Below are positions 2,602 to 22,747 of a DNA stretch of 23,293 nucleotides, one piece after another; positions within the stretch are counted from its first letter, which is position 1; each line of letters begins with the position of its first letter. Source of the DNA: a virus; the IMG/VR virus record IMGVR_UViG_3300022871_000121, positions 1-23,293 of that record; one strand, given 5' to 3'. A model generated the notes under the pieces. The model was given only the letters and a program-made list of their open reading frames with translations. It was not told the DNA's origin and did no database searches. The position numbers were made by a program, and so were the translations under genes.

Positions 2602-2676
2602 TGGTCGCGACAAAAAGATTTGAACTTTCAACCTCTCAATTATAAGTTGAGCGCTCTACCGTTGAGCTATGCCGCA
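2602..2676 (-). tRNA. trnI: tRNA-Ile (TAT anticodon)
   Basis: Acceptor TGCGGCA/TGTCGCG pairs with two G-T wobbles, D-stem GCTC/GAGC, anticodon stem CTCAA/TTGAG around loop CTTATAA, T-arm GAAAG-TTCAAAT-CTTTT, discriminator A and encoded CCA. The anticodon reads TAT, which decodes AUA directly. Most bacteria decode AUA with a CAT tRNA modified to lysidine, so a TAT tRNA is unusual. Only one base separates it from the tRNA-Met candidate and from tRNA-Ile(GAT). Confidence 0.88.
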
Positions 2677-2677
2677 A

Positions 2678-2754
2678 TGGTTGCAGTAAGAAGATTTGAA
2701 CTTCCGACCAACGCGTTATCAGCACGCTGCTCTACCAGACTGAGCTATACTGCA
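2678..2754 (-). tRNA. trnI: tRNA-Ile (GAT)
   Basis: Cloverleaf: acceptor TGCAGTA/TACTGCA perfect, D-stem GCTC/GAGC, anticodon stem GCGTG/CGCGT (two G-T pairs) with loop CTGATAA giving GAT, T-arm GGAAG-TTCAAAT-CTTCT, discriminator A, encoded CCA at 2678-2680. Reads AUU and AUC. It is part of the His-Ile-Ile-Met group. Confidence 0.93.
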
Positions 2755-2757
2755 ATA

Positions 2758-2835
2758 TGGGGTAGATAATGGGTTTTGAACCCACTTACACTGGAGCCAC
2801 AATCCAGCCGCTTACCGACTTTGCGTCTATCTACC
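2758..2835 (-). tRNA. trnH: tRNA-His (GTG) with encoded G-1
   Basis: Acceptor GTAGATA/TATCTAC is perfect and is extended by a 5' G (base 2835) opposite C73, the G-1:C73 pair that identifies histidine tRNAs. Anticodon stem CTGGA/TCCAG with loop TTGTGGC gives GTG. T-arm GTGGG-TTCAAAA-CCCAT and encoded CCA at 2758-2760 are present. First tRNA of the third group, 36 bases after the cold-shock gene stop. Confidence 0.93.
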
Positions 2836-2871: not shown

Positions 2872-3072
2872 TTATTCTACTTCTATTACTTGTTCAGCTT
2901 GTGGACCTTTGTCGCCTTCAATAATATTGAATTCAACATTTTGTCCTTCATCTAAAGTTTTAAATCCTTCTTTCTGAATTTGTGAGTAATGTACGAAGAT
3001 ATCTTCGCCTGCTTCAGTAGTAATAAATCCGTAACCTTTCTCAGCATTAAACCATTTTACTATTCCTGTCAT
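2872..3072 (-). CDS. csp: Cold-shock protein (CspA family, 66 aa)
   Basis: This is a full-length cold-shock domain, a small five-strand beta barrel that binds single-stranded RNA and DNA and melts RNA structure. The sequence starts [20 protein letters not shown]: the KGYGFI stretch (residues 12-17) is RNP1 and DIFVHY (24-29) is RNP2, with the aromatic residues W7, F8, Y14, F16, F26, H28 and Y29 that stack on bases. Length and the C-terminal GPQAEQV match the bacterial family. The ATG at 3072 follows AGGAGG with an 8-base spacer. It sits between two tRNA groups, unlike the virion genes on both sides. Acting as an RNA chaperone during infection is the likely role; a cold-induced role is not shown. 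Confidence 0.96.
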
Positions 3073-3212: not shown

Positions 3213-3288
3213 TGGTGCTGATTATAGGAGTCGAACCTATCACCTATTGTTTACAAGACAATTGCTCTGCCAAATGAGCTAAATCAGC
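3213..3288 (-). tRNA. trnT: tRNA-Thr (TGT)
   Basis: Acceptor GCTGATT/AATCAGC perfect, D-stem GCTC/GAGC, anticodon stem ATTGT/ACAAT around CTTGTAA giving TGT, T-arm ATAGG-TTCGACT-CCTAT, discriminator A, encoded CCA at 3213-3215. It starts two bases downstream of tRNA-Gly, so the two are probably cut from one transcript. Confidence 0.94.
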
Positions 3289-3289
3289 G

Positions 3290-3363
3290 TGGAGTACGTG
3301 ACGAGATTTGAACTCGCGTAACCAGCTTGGAAGGCTGGGAGACTACCACTGTCCTACACATAC
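3290..3363 (-). tRNA. trnG: tRNA-Gly (TCC)
   Basis: Acceptor GTATGTG/CACGTAC with one T-G pair, D-stem GGAC/GTCT, anticodon stem CCAGC/GCTGG around CTTCCAA giving TCC, T-arm GCGAG-TTCAAAT-CTCGT, discriminator T as is usual for bacterial glycine tRNAs, encoded CCA at 3290-3292. Lies 39 bases after the RNase H-like gene. Confidence 0.94.
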
Positions 3364-3402: not shown

Positions 3403-3948
3403 CTAATTTATTGCTAGTTTACTTTTATGTTTCCTTGGAGGTCTTATATGGGGTACAGGTGCTCTTCCACTACCTTTTTTACTTTTTTTGTCAGCTATAC
3501 TACTTGCTGCTGGACTATCTGGTTTAATGTTACATTTAAACCCACTACCCACAACCCATCCAACCATAGCTTGTATTAAATCCTTAGTTGGACCGTTTCT
3601 ACCAACATCTAAATCTATTTCTACTCTTTCTTCGGGTATATCGTTTTGTCTACAAAATTCTTTTAATCTAAGACCTAACATAATAGATTCATTTACTTCA
3701 CTTTCTATTTTAACTCTAAGATTTTCAAAACGTTTAACTCTTGTTGTTTTAGAAAAGAAGAACCTTGCTTTATTACTAATATCTCCCATCTCTAAAATTA
3801 AAACTACAACAACTACATTTGTTCCACTGTAACTTTGACTATCTGTTCCAACGTGGATTTCATATTCTTCCATTACAGAACATCTTTCTTTAATTATGTT
3901 ATTCATTTCTTGTTCAGTAACTTTGTCATACGTTAGTGAATCAAACAT
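3403..3948 (-). CDS. YkuK-family RNase H-like protein (DUF458)
   Basis: The protein matches the YkuK/DUF458 group, predicted to have an RNase H fold. With numbering from the upstream ATG at 3957, the first strand carries IHVGTDSQ (34-41, D39). An acidic helix has E85 and E87. The EIDLDVGRNGPTKDLIQAMV segment (113-132) supplies D115 and D117. The family signature KPDSPAASSIADK (145-157) supplies D147 and D156. These acidic residues are the ones expected to bind metal. The tail is basic (KKSKKGSGRAP and RPPRKHKSK), suggesting nucleic acid contact. I favour the start at the second ATG (3948) because AGGAAGG is 9 bases before it but abuts the first ATG. It lies between tRNA-Phe and tRNA-Gly. A nuclease or RNA-handling role is inferred; no activity is established for the family as far as I know. 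Confidence 0.88.
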   Translation of the reverse strand: MFDSLTYDKVTEQEMNNIIKERCSVMEEYEIHVGTDSQSYSGTNVVVVVLILEMGDISNKARFFFSKTTRVKRFENLRVKIESEVNESIMLGLRLKEFCRQNDIPEERVEIDLDVGRNGPTKDLIQAMVGWVVGSGFKCNIKPDSPAASSIADKKSKKGSGRAPVPHIRPPRKHKSKLAIN

Positions 3949-3974
3949 TTTATTCATCCTTCCTAATATTTTTA

Positions 3975-4050
3975 TGGTCGTCCGAGGCGGGATTGAACCA
4001 CCTACACCTAGATTTTCAGTCTAGTGCTCTACCTGATGAGCTACCGAACG
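3975..4050 (-). tRNA. trnF: tRNA-Phe (GAA)
   Basis: Acceptor CGTTCGG/TCGGACG with two wobble pairs, D-stem GCTC/GAGC, anticodon stem CTAGA/TCTAG around CTGAAAA giving GAA, T-arm GGTGG-TTCAATC-CCGCC, discriminator A, encoded CCA at 3975-3977. It is the last of the Arg-Asn-Phe group and ends 18 bases before the next gene. Confidence 0.94.
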
Positions 4051-4051
4051 T

Positions 4052-4128
4052 TGGAGATTGGAATGAGACTTGAACTCACGACCTGCGCGTTAACAGCGCG
4101 CTGCTCTACCGAATTGAGCTATCCAATC
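4052..4128 (-). tRNA. trnN: tRNA-Asn (GTT)
   Basis: Acceptor GATTGGA/TCCAATC perfect, D-stem GCTC/GAGC, anticodon stem GCGCG/CGCGC around CTGTTAA giving GTT, T-arm GTGAG-TTCAAGT-CTCAT, encoded CCA at 4052-4054. The discriminator base reads T, while bacterial asparagine tRNAs usually carry G there. Confidence 0.92.
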
Positions 4129-4130
4129 AT

Positions 4131-4208
4131 TGGTACGCTTGAGAAGACTTGAACTCCCACAAACCCAGTTCCGTAGACTGGCGCTCTATCCAATTGAGCT
4201 ACAAGCGT
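4131..4208 (-). tRNA. trnR: tRNA-Arg (ACG)
   Basis: Acceptor ACGCTTG/CAAGCGT perfect, D-stem GCTC/GAGC, anticodon stem CCAGT/ACTGG around CTACGGA giving ACG, T-arm GGGAG-TTCAAGT-CTTCT, discriminator A, encoded CCA at 4131-4133. ACG needs deamination to inosine by the host TadA enzyme to read all CGU/CGC/CGA codons. First tRNA after the promoter at 4235-4263. Confidence 0.93.
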
Positions 4209-7947: not shown

Positions 7948-8346
7948 TTATTTTATTGTTTGGTTCTTGTAATCTAATTGCCAATTCACATCATCATAAA
8001 ATATCTCGTGAAAACTTTTATGCTCATATGGACTAATATTATATAAAGCAGTTAATCTAATTCTATCAAGAGTTCCCGAAGTTAACCCAGATGTATCTAA
8101 ATTACATATAAATAATCTACATATTTCAGGTCTTACTTCATAGATATTACATTTCTTATTTACTCTATCTCGGAATGGGCAAACATTTTCAAGTCTACCA
8201 TCTCTCCGATATATTAACTGTTCTATATTATTATCTATTATGTATTGTTTAATAGTATCAACTTCAATCGCAGAAACTGTCGCACAAGTCGTACAACAAT
8301 CTCCACAATTTGAACAAGAACCATTTATCGTGTTATCTCTAATCAT
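7948..8346 (-). CDS. YkgJ-family cysteine-cluster protein (132 aa)
   Basis: The N-terminus has SCSNCGDCCTTC (C11, C14, C17, C18, C21), the CxxCxxCC cluster that defines the YkgJ family of zinc- or iron-chelating proteins. A second set follows in CPFRDRVNKKCNIYEVRPEI and CRLFIC (C56, C66, C76, C81), with the family's C-x-I-Y-x-x-R-P-x-x-C core. In this family the cysteines are thought to hold metal or an Fe-S cluster; no reaction is firmly assigned. The ATG at 8346 follows a GGGGG site. It is encoded in the middle of the tail-tip genes, between a repeat protein and the hub protein, with spacings of about 20-25 bases, so it is expressed as a late gene. It may modify or mature a virion protein or act in the host at late times; the sequence does not decide. 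Confidence 0.88.
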   Translation of the reverse strand: MIRDNTINGSCSNCGDCCTTCATVSAIEVDTIKQYIIDNNIEQLIYRRDGRLENVCPFRDRVNKKCNIYEVRPEICRLFICNLDTSGLTSGTLDRIRLTALYNISPYEHKSFHEIFYDDVNWQLDYKNQTIK

Positions 8347-16953: not shown

Positions 16954-16977
16954 ACCACTCACCTCCGCTTGTGAGTA

Positions 16978-17711
16978 TTACAGTTGTGCTATATCTACAC
17001 CTGTTATTCCACCAGTTTCTTTTTCCTTTGCTTTCTTTTTAATATCTGCTTTCCAATCATCAAACGTAGAAGAACTCATTGATTTAGACCAAAGGTCAAA
17101 CAATTTGTCCTCGTTTGATTGTTTCAATGCTACGCTTATTTTTTTAACTGCTATCTTTAAATCTTGGTCAAATATAAAATCTAAGTTTCCATATCTTAGG
17201 TAAAGAAGGTCTTCTAGCTCGTCCCAACCTATAGAAGTTTCAAGTTGAACAAACGTGAGAAGAATTTTACGAAACCCGGATTTGTAAACACTGCCAATAC
17301 TGCGTCAACAGCTTCCTCTTCTTCCATATCTAATACTTGTTTAGCAGTATAATCTTCTAGGTAATACCCCATAAAGTCTGCTATTAAATCAAACTTGTCA
17401 GCTACAATACCAAGTAACTTTAAAGCTACTTCGAAGAATCCTGCGCTAGACGAAACGCCCTTATGATTAAGGGCAAATTCTCGTAATTTAGCTATATCGT
17501 TTTCGTGTTCCTTATATAGTTCCTTACGTTCTTTAGCACTAACATTATTTAATAGATAAAGTTCAACATCTGCTTCTGTTCCAAGCATTTCCTTTTGAGC
17601 CCCTGTTAGTACATTTAATATATCGTTTATATCTTCTTTTTTTAAGTCAAGTTGTGTTACTAGTTTCGAGATTTTTTGCACATCTCTGAATTTGAATACT
17701 TTTACATTCAT
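16978..17711 (-). CDS. Tail assembly chaperone, frameshifted long form (G-T type fusion)
   Basis: The region between the short chaperone and the tape measure gene has no start of its own but is open in the -1 frame. Ribosomes slipping at GGGTTTC (17277-17271) pass from residue 147 of the short protein into 97 more codons, giving RKILLTFVQLETSIGWDELE and then DLLYLRYGNLDFIFDQDLKI, ending GITGVDIAQL at TAA 16980-16978. The product is 244 residues. The extension has well-formed coding character (D/E/K-rich helices, two W residues, frequent ATA Ile codons), and no stop occurs between the slip site and the end. Long-form chaperones bind the tape measure protein and the tail tube subunit during assembly, as gpGT does in lambda. 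Its position directly before the tape measure gene fits. Confidence 0.88.
17229..17711 (-). CDS. Tail assembly chaperone, short form (G type, 160 aa)
   Basis: Zero-frame product from ATG 17711 to TAG 17231-17229, with AAGGGGGA 7 bases before the start. It is an all-helical, charged protein (VFKFRDVQKISKLVTQLDLK, GAQKEMLGTEADVELYLLNN, DFMGYYLEDYTAKQVLDMEE), like the short chaperones that precede tape measure genes in Gram-positive siphophages. Most ribosomes end here; a minority shift at the slippery site thirteen codons before the end and make the long form. The short form is normally in excess and coats the tape measure protein. The assignment rests on position, size and the frameshift, because the sequence of this family is poorly conserved. 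Confidence 0.88.
   Translation of the reverse strand: MNVKVFKFRDVQKISKLVTQLDLKKEDINDILNVLTGAQKEMLGTEADVELYLLNNVSAKERKELYKEHENDIAKLREFALNHKGVSSSAGFFEVALKLLGIVADKFDLIADFMGYYLEDYTAKQVLDMEEEEAVDAVLAVFTNPGFVKFFSRLFNLKLL
17271..17277 (-). promoter_or_regulatory. -1 ribosomal frameshift slippery site GGGTTTC
   Basis: The seven bases read G-GGT-TTC in the zero frame, a perfect X-XXY-YYZ heptamer; after slipping, both tRNAs re-pair on GGG and TTT. It is the only such heptamer I find between the end of the -1 frame's last upstream stop and the zero-frame TAG. I see no strong stem or Shine-Dalgarno stimulator at the usual distances. Confidence 0.85.
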
Positions 17712-21556: not shown

Positions 21557-22747
21557 TTACGATGCAACTGTGTTGAATACTTGTTTAACGAATGAAATAC
21601 CACGCATTAATTTCATGTCGTGTTTCATAATAGCTCTATAAACTGTAAAGTCATTAGTAAATGCATTAATTACTTTACCGTCTTCATCAGTAAATGTAGT
21701 ACTTCCGTCCATAGCTAATTCTACTTTGAACTCTTCACCAATCAACATATCGCTCCATTTCCCGAAGAAAATATCTGTTGTTGAACTAGATGTTCTAACT
21801 TGGTTCGAAATTAAAACTTTGTAACCTAACATTGTTCCTTTGTCAGTTAATTCTCTGTTAATAAGTCCTTCCCCTGTGTCTCTTTCGTCTGAAAGGTTTT
21901 TCCAAGAGTCCCAACCCATTACCCAACCAATACTTGCGTCAGCTAAGTTAATATTTTTAAGTCCTAATAAAGTTACGATTGCAACTAATTTAGTTCTTGT
22001 TGGTGCATTTGCATAAGCATCTGGTACTTGAATGTCGGGTGTATTTGCTATACCTAGAGGTGCATCTTCTCCACCAGTTCCGTATAAACAAGCGTAATCC
22101 ATAGCTTGTGCCATTGTTTCTAACATATTATCTAAAACAATTCTATCTGCGTAATAAGAGTTAGTTCTTAAAATATCGTTTGACATTGCTGTTAAACTCA
22201 TTAATTTTTTAGAACTTAATCTAACTCTACCTAATTTGATGTTACTAAATGCTGCAGCTCCACCTTCAGGAATATATTGTGCAGTTAATCCACCGATTAA
22301 TTTATTAATACTAATATTACCTTTTTCCATAGGAATTACAACTGCTCCCATTTCTTTAACAATAGTTCTGTTATAAAGTAAGTCAATAAATTCGTCTGAA
22401 TAGATTTCAGGAATTAATAATCCACCGTCATTTTCTTCCATTAATGCTTTATCCATTTTTGCTAAGAATGCTGTATCTTTTGCATATCCTTTTTTCAAGA
22501 AGTCTGCTTGGAATTTTGCAGGGTTTGATGAAGCTTTCATATTACCAGAAAGAATTTCTCTTTGTGTGTATAAAATAGCTTTTGCTAAACGTGCAAACAT
22601 AATTCCAGGTTCGTCGCTTTTATTGTGACGATTTGGTGTTTCTTTTTGTGGGGCAGAAAGCAAAGTACTGTAATTCTTACCAACTAATACTTTGTCTATT
22701 GCAGATTGTACAAGTTCTTCCACTTTTGCCATAATTTCTTTTTCCAT
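21557..22747 (-). CDS. Major capsid protein, HK97 fold (396 aa)
   Basis: The chain has the HK97 major capsid pattern: a charged, helical N-terminal delta-like region (1-~105), then NDGGLLIPEIYSDEFIDLLY, NRTIVKEMGAVVIPMEKGNI, YIPEGGAAAFSNIKLGRVRL, KLMSLTAMSNDILRTNSYYA, the alanine/glycine-rich helix ETMAQAMDYACLYGTGGEDA followed by PLGIANT, and the C-terminal GWVMGWDSWKNLSDERDTGE and FTVYRAIMKHDMKLMRGISF. Length is normal for the family. The N-terminal part is probably a scaffold-like delta domain that the prohead protease removes. AGGAGG lies 9 bases before the ATG. It is downstream of the scaffold gene, the usual order. Confidence 0.96.
   Translation of the reverse strand: MEKEIMAKVEELVQSAIDKVLVGKNYSTLLSAPQKETPNRHNKSDEPGIMFARLAKAILYTQREILSGNMKASSNPAKFQADFLKKGYAKDTAFLAKMDKALMEENDGGLLIPEIYSDEFIDLLYNRTIVKEMGAVVIPMEKGNISINKLIGGLTAQYIPEGGAAAFSNIKLGRVRLSSKKLMSLTAMSNDILRTNSYYADRIVLDNMLETMAQAMDYACLYGTGGEDAPLGIANTPDIQVPDAYANAPTRTKLVAIVTLLGLKNINLADASIGWVMGWDSWKNLSDERDTGEGLINRELTDKGTMLGYKVLISNQVRTSSSTTDIFFGKWSDMLIGEEFKVELAMDGSTTFTDEDGKVINAFTNDFTVYRAIMKHDMKLMRGISFVKQVFNTVAS

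Follow-up and report, generated by a model that had tools for sequence, protein, structure and literature searches.

Genomic context of the tRNA cluster

The window (the whole stretch of DNA that was analysed, 23,293 bases of an IMG/VR virus record) is a siphophage late region with an HK97-type capsid, a tape measure and tail proteins. Default ARAGORN reported eight tRNAs in the window, the last being a tRNA-Ile with a TAT anticodon, referred to below as Ile(TAT); a ninth, with a CAT anticodon, was spotted by eye in the flank and is called only with relaxed settings (-ps90), which gave 0.075 false tRNAs per window on shuffled windows (Table 1). Ile(TAT) is flanked by spacers of 1 nt on each side, and the spacers at this tight end of the cluster are 1-3 nt. 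The RNase H-like protein encoded within the cluster shares 43% identity with the protein encoded at the same place in a 102-kb relative. No other viral contig had an exact match to the TAT tRNA or to the left end of the window. Further tRNAs might therefore lie beyond position 1, and nine is the count within the window. The promoter and terminator scans gave no matches above chance level. The tail region also encodes a protein with a zinc/iron-chelating domain.

Table 1. Features of the window that bear on the Ile(TAT) gene.
Feature	Position	Strand	Evidence
Divergent tRNA-Met-like gene, CAT anticodon	2528-2600	-	ARAGORN -ps90; 1 nt from Ile(TAT)
tRNA-Ile, TAT anticodon (predicted UAU), 75 nt including encoded CCA (2602-2604)	2602-2676	-	ARAGORN; Rfam RF00005
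Anticodon arm CTCAA-CTTATAA-TTGAG; anticodon 2642-2644	2635-2651	-	Sequence and cmscan alignment
tRNA-Ile(GAT)	2678-2754	-	ARAGORN, Rfam; 1 nt from Ile(TAT), 71% identity to it
tRNA-His(GTG)	2758-2834	-	ARAGORN, Rfam
Cold-shock protein gene, within cluster	2872-3072	-	PF00313, 6e-31
tRNA-Thr(TGT)	3213-3288	-	ARAGORN, Rfam
tRNA-Gly(TCC)	3290-3363	-	ARAGORN, Rfam
RNase H-like protein gene, within cluster	3403-3957	-	PF04308 profile match
tRNA-Phe(GAA)	3975-4050	-	ARAGORN, Rfam
tRNA-Asn(GTT)	4052-4128	-	ARAGORN, Rfam
tRNA-Arg(ACG)	4131-4208	-	ARAGORN, Rfam
CxxCxxCC zinc/iron-chelating domain protein	7948-8346	-	PF03692
Overlapping-frame extension after tail-assembly chaperone (17229-17711)	16962-17300	-	
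Major capsid gene, nearly without AUA	21557-22747	-	PF05065, 8e-29; codon counts

The neighbouring CAT gene has a perfect 7-bp acceptor stem, a TTCAATG T-loop and an encoded CCA, and its D-arm (GTGCA-GGG-TGTAC) is abnormal. It was called tRNA-Met(cat) with the relaxed settings, and its Rfam score (17.1 bits) is under the cut-off. The gene is more stable than its shuffles (fold z -3.2), and its closest match is the initiator-like tRNA-Met of the 102-kb relative (62.5%). It is either a strongly divergent Met tRNA or a decaying one.

Structure and identity elements of Ile(TAT)

An earlier sequence-only reading had noted a tRNA with a TAT anticodon in a clean 5-bp stem, which was borne out by the ARAGORN call and by the stem pairs read directly. 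On the minus strand, 5' to 3', the gene consists of the acceptor strand TGCGGCA, TA, the D-arm GCTC-AACGGTA-GAGC, G, the anticodon arm, AGGTT, the T-arm GAAAG-TTCAAAT-CTTTT, the second acceptor strand TGTCGCG, A and CCA. All five pairs of the anticodon stem are Watson-Crick, and the loop presents the UAU anticodon with U33 and A37. Covariance-model scoring, which the same reading had proposed as a check, accepted the gene as a full-length Rfam tRNA (66.5 bits, E 1e-12; gathering cut-off 29 bits), and this score is the third highest in the cluster. The blemishes include the U1.G72 and G5.U68 wobbles, the former being an unusual pair, and a weak, A-U-rich T-stem. The thermodynamic fold is unremarkable by itself (z -0.8), and the call is therefore based on the covariance score and the context. 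The locus is a sound phage tRNA-Ile(UAU) gene, and the tRNA is probably functional.

The isoleucine identity features listed for E. coli are A73, A35, U36, A37 (the t6A site), C29-G41, C4-G69 and G16 (PMC9976931). The main elements A73, A35, U36 and A37 are all found in Ile(TAT). Among the minor elements, in a set determined in E. coli only, C29-G41 is present, G4-C69 replaces C4-G69, and C16 replaces G16.

Ile(GAT) is the best match of Ile(TAT); the two T-arms are near-identical and both tRNAs have U1. An origin by duplication of Ile(GAT) was considered and is not established by the 71% match, since the unrelated Asn tRNA also matches Ile(GAT) at 71%. The nearest phage DNA to the TAT tRNA by blastn consisted of tRNAs annotated mostly as Pro (73-76%), which is uninformative.

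Comparison with the 102-kb relative

Among viral contigs, the major capsid protein matches seven relatives; identity is 100% for three of them and 70-74% for the other four. Only one relative found, the 102-kb contig (L012, G004), also spans the tRNA stretch, and a search for further relatives covering the cluster returned this contig only. Its 25 tRNAs are accompanied by a tmRNA with an unusual predicted tag (GNLFTKAVSWVKSLFSRPTVALSV; L083, 5728-15768). QueE-, FolE-, QueD- and QueC-like genes and a DpdA-like protein were also recognized by eye in this relative (L086, 3478-5382 and 9153-10789), and this set suggests a 7-deazaguanine DNA modification.

The order Asn-Phe-[RNase H-like]-Gly-Thr-[Csp]-His-Ile(GAT)-X is common to the window and the 102-kb relative. 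The slot X is occupied by Ile(TAT) in the window and by a CAT tRNA (at 37049) in the relative. The latter shares 68.8% identity with E. coli ileX and only 62.5% with metU, and by this pairwise identity it is a probable, though not certain, lysidine-type Ile2(CAU). It is followed by a second CAT tRNA of ambiguous class, and an initiator-like CAT tRNA lies elsewhere. No TilS-like ATP_bind_3 domain (PF01171) was found in the 102-kb relative.

AUA codon usage

The heavy use of AUA described in the sequence-only reading holds for the raw counts: AUA accounts for 241 of the 504 Ile codons (48%) in 25 genes of the window, or 34 per 1000 codons. It does not hold against the phage's own A-ending preference, since the share of AUA versus AUU is 0.508, whereas that of A versus T at the third position is 0.571 in six four-fold and TCN boxes (p 0.012). 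If anything, AUA is slightly under-used, and no enrichment beyond base composition was found in this comparison, which is made within the phage. The tail-chaperone frameshifted extension, which overlaps the chaperone frame as in G/GT-type programmed frameshifts, does contain six AUA codons as had been noted, but among seven Ile codons rather than eight, and it is one short region.

The major capsid gene has only 2 AUA among 29 Ile codons, with 23 AUU (p 5e-6 versus the remaining genes), and the share of A-ending codons in its other boxes is normal (0.55). The capsid genes of four relatives have no AUA, with L012 and L015 being near-identical and equal in codon counts, hence non-independent. 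The same combination, AUA almost absent and other A-ending codons freely used, was seen in the capsid genes of the window, L009 and L012-L015. In the 102-kb relative, the capsid gene, its neighbour and the tail-tube gene jointly avoid AUA (p 3e-6); the avoidance is as strong in the bearer of the probable lysidine-type Ile2 tRNA. Because the capsid gene nearly avoids AUA, this codon looks slow, scarce or costly in the host even with the phage tRNAs. The pattern is compatible with a tRNA that augments a poor AUA-reading supply in genes of moderate expression, but it is no demonstration that Ile(TAT) makes AUA a good codon. An adaptation of the phage's AUA usage to this tRNA is thus unsupported.

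TAT tRNAs in other viruses and bacteria

A TAT-tRNA shape motif matched 42 viral contigs, and ARAGORN called 39 of them Ile(tat). Two other matching contigs (L049 and L055), without an Ile call, have a predicted tRNA-Pyl(CTA), and one of them also has a long-tag tmRNA. The CAT version of the motif matched at least 120 viral contigs, with Met and Ile2 pooled. The TAT motif was also present in at least 113 bacterial genomes; most of these are Patescibacteria, and the rest comprise some Lacticaseibacillus and scattered other taxa. Among 18 TAT-motif genomes searched for TilS, many of them incomplete assemblies, nine of the Patescibacteria type had none above the cut-off, and the other nine had it. 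TAT tRNAs thus occur in two settings, as the likely sole reader of AUA or as an extra one alongside TilS.

The UAU-encoding tRNA-Ile has been reported in 19 species (PMC4013482) and in 17 genomes (PMC8450103), counts consistent with TAT tRNAs being rare in cultivated bacteria. Bacteria without TilS, such as Mycoplasma mobile, likewise encode UAU directly; in those cells it alone reads AUA, whereas here it is a phage gene. Phage-borne TAT tRNAs also occur in lactobacilli: the isolates iLp84 and PLE3 carry one annotated as tRNA-Ile (97% identity to the TAT tRNA of L021), and Lacticaseibacillus genomes have TilS too. However, this tRNA is only about 70% identical to Ile(TAT), and, in contrast to the cluster-bearing phage of the window, these phages are of temperate type, carry a single tRNA or a few, and have hosts with an Arg-type IleRS. 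Ile(TAT) is an uncommon kind of tRNA gene that is already known: isolated lactobacillus phages carry it, and in Patescibacteria it is common. Phage Ile2(CAU) tRNAs likewise serve AUA; those of Latilactobacillus curvatus prophages were explained by a higher AUA use in phage than in host (PMC10688831). Their anticodon needs the host TilS, whereas the tRNA of the window has UAU.

Putative host and charging by IleRS

Judging from the nearest relatives of its DNA polymerase and tape measure, the phage may have an ordinary member of the Bacillota as host. No relative was found in the capsid alignment against bacterial genomes; capsid homologues, all distant, were present in 23 of 398 Bacillota genomes. 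The DNA search of the same 398 genomes gave, among the matches listed, only tRNA-type ones, with no spacer and no prophage.

Going by the literature, the main obstacle to Ile(TAT) is charging, a point absent from the sequence-only reading. The E. coli IleRS reportedly charges UAU tRNA poorly owing to Trp905, and the M. mobile enzyme is said to have Arg there. Going by the motif, we place this position directly behind the second cysteine in the C-terminal CxxC. In 30 sampled Bacillota IleRS loci, Trp was found there in all 26 readable enzymes (one had no motif and three were unreadable). The Lacticaseibacillus enzymes have Arg (CQRCR, CPRCR), and the genomes concerned (L330, L331) carry TAT tRNAs. 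One deltaproteobacterium also has Arg, and Trp was found in Nostoc, two alphaproteobacteria and one elusimicrobium, all with TAT tRNAs. At this place in the zinc motif, Arg instead of the usual Trp was thus seen in L330, L331 and L341, all of them genomes with TAT tRNAs. In an ordinary Bacillota host, the charging of Ile(TAT) may be weak.

Functional interpretation

A functional phage tRNA-Ile, whose U34 is unmodified or lightly modified and pairs with the A of AUA, is the probable explanation, with expression, charging and decoding inferred. It is supported by the full-length high score, the identity elements, the tight nine-gene array, the conserved order, the AUA frequency and the recurrence of such tRNAs elsewhere; the case against it comprises the avoidance of AUA by the capsid genes (presumably the most expressed), the Trp-type IleRS, the absent C4-G69 and G16, and U1.G72. 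The tRNA would be co-transcribed with its neighbours and excised from the tight array, A37 would be given t6A, and the host IleRS would charge it at some rate. It would then increase the capacity to read AUA in the AUA-rich late genes when the host Ile2(LAU) is limiting. Its slot in the cluster is the one in which the 102-kb relative keeps a probable lysidine-type Ile2(CAU) tRNA. We infer that it supplements rather than replaces the host Ile2. As for the proposed independence of TilS, the true UAU anticodon, for which lysidine is predicted to be unnecessary, and the lack of a PF01171 match in the relative are in line with it, but an adaptation of the AUA usage is not supported.

An expressed but hardly charged tRNA, which would be redundant or differently used and would not decode AUA, seems unlikely. 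The avoidance of AUA in the capsid genes, the uniform Trp in the readable Bacillota enzymes, and the Arg in the Lacticaseibacillus genomes with TAT tRNAs, as if UAU use required an adapted enzyme, are all compatible with it; redundant CAU and UAU tRNAs are also reported to occur in Lactobacillus plantarum. However, the structure has been kept intact in an AT-rich phage, and the relative that carries the CAT Ile2-type tRNA avoids AUA equally, so that the avoidance may have nothing to do with Ile(TAT). Moreover, B. subtilis without TilS reportedly grows well, with low AUG misreading, on a tRNA-Ile1 changed from G34 to U34. That suppressor likewise combines a UAU anticodon with the body of a tRNA-Ile, in a bacterium of the Bacillota; it is laboratory-made and chromosomal, whereas Ile(TAT) is phage-encoded. 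A natural counterpart of this bypass, in which the lineage swapped a lysidine-dependent Ile2(CAU) for a UAU tRNA in the same slot and freed AUA reading from the host TilS or from a nuclease-cuttable tRNA, is a rather doubtful reading.

Phage tRNA clusters restore tRNAs cut by defence nucleases, and the cluster is large in the 102-kb relative; Ile(TAT) might thus replace a host Ile2 cut by an anticodon nuclease, its altered anticodon being no substrate. This is quite improbable, as the cluster spans many isoacceptors and not AUA alone. It is highly improbable that Ile(TAT) is a decaying tRNA without a role: the two wobbles, the weak T-stem and the aberrant adjoining gene might indicate decay, but the score, the intact anticodon arm and the encoded CCA argue against it.

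If the functional tRNA-Ile is charged and used, the phage decodes AUA without the lysidine step on which most bacteria depend, and it would provide a natural setting in which to test how AUG misreading by a U34 tRNA is prevented on bacterial ribosomes. Comparing the slot with that of the 102-kb relative yields a concrete CAT-to-TAT exchange for study, and the IleRS residue survey leads to a simple prediction of the hosts that would be able to use Ile(TAT).
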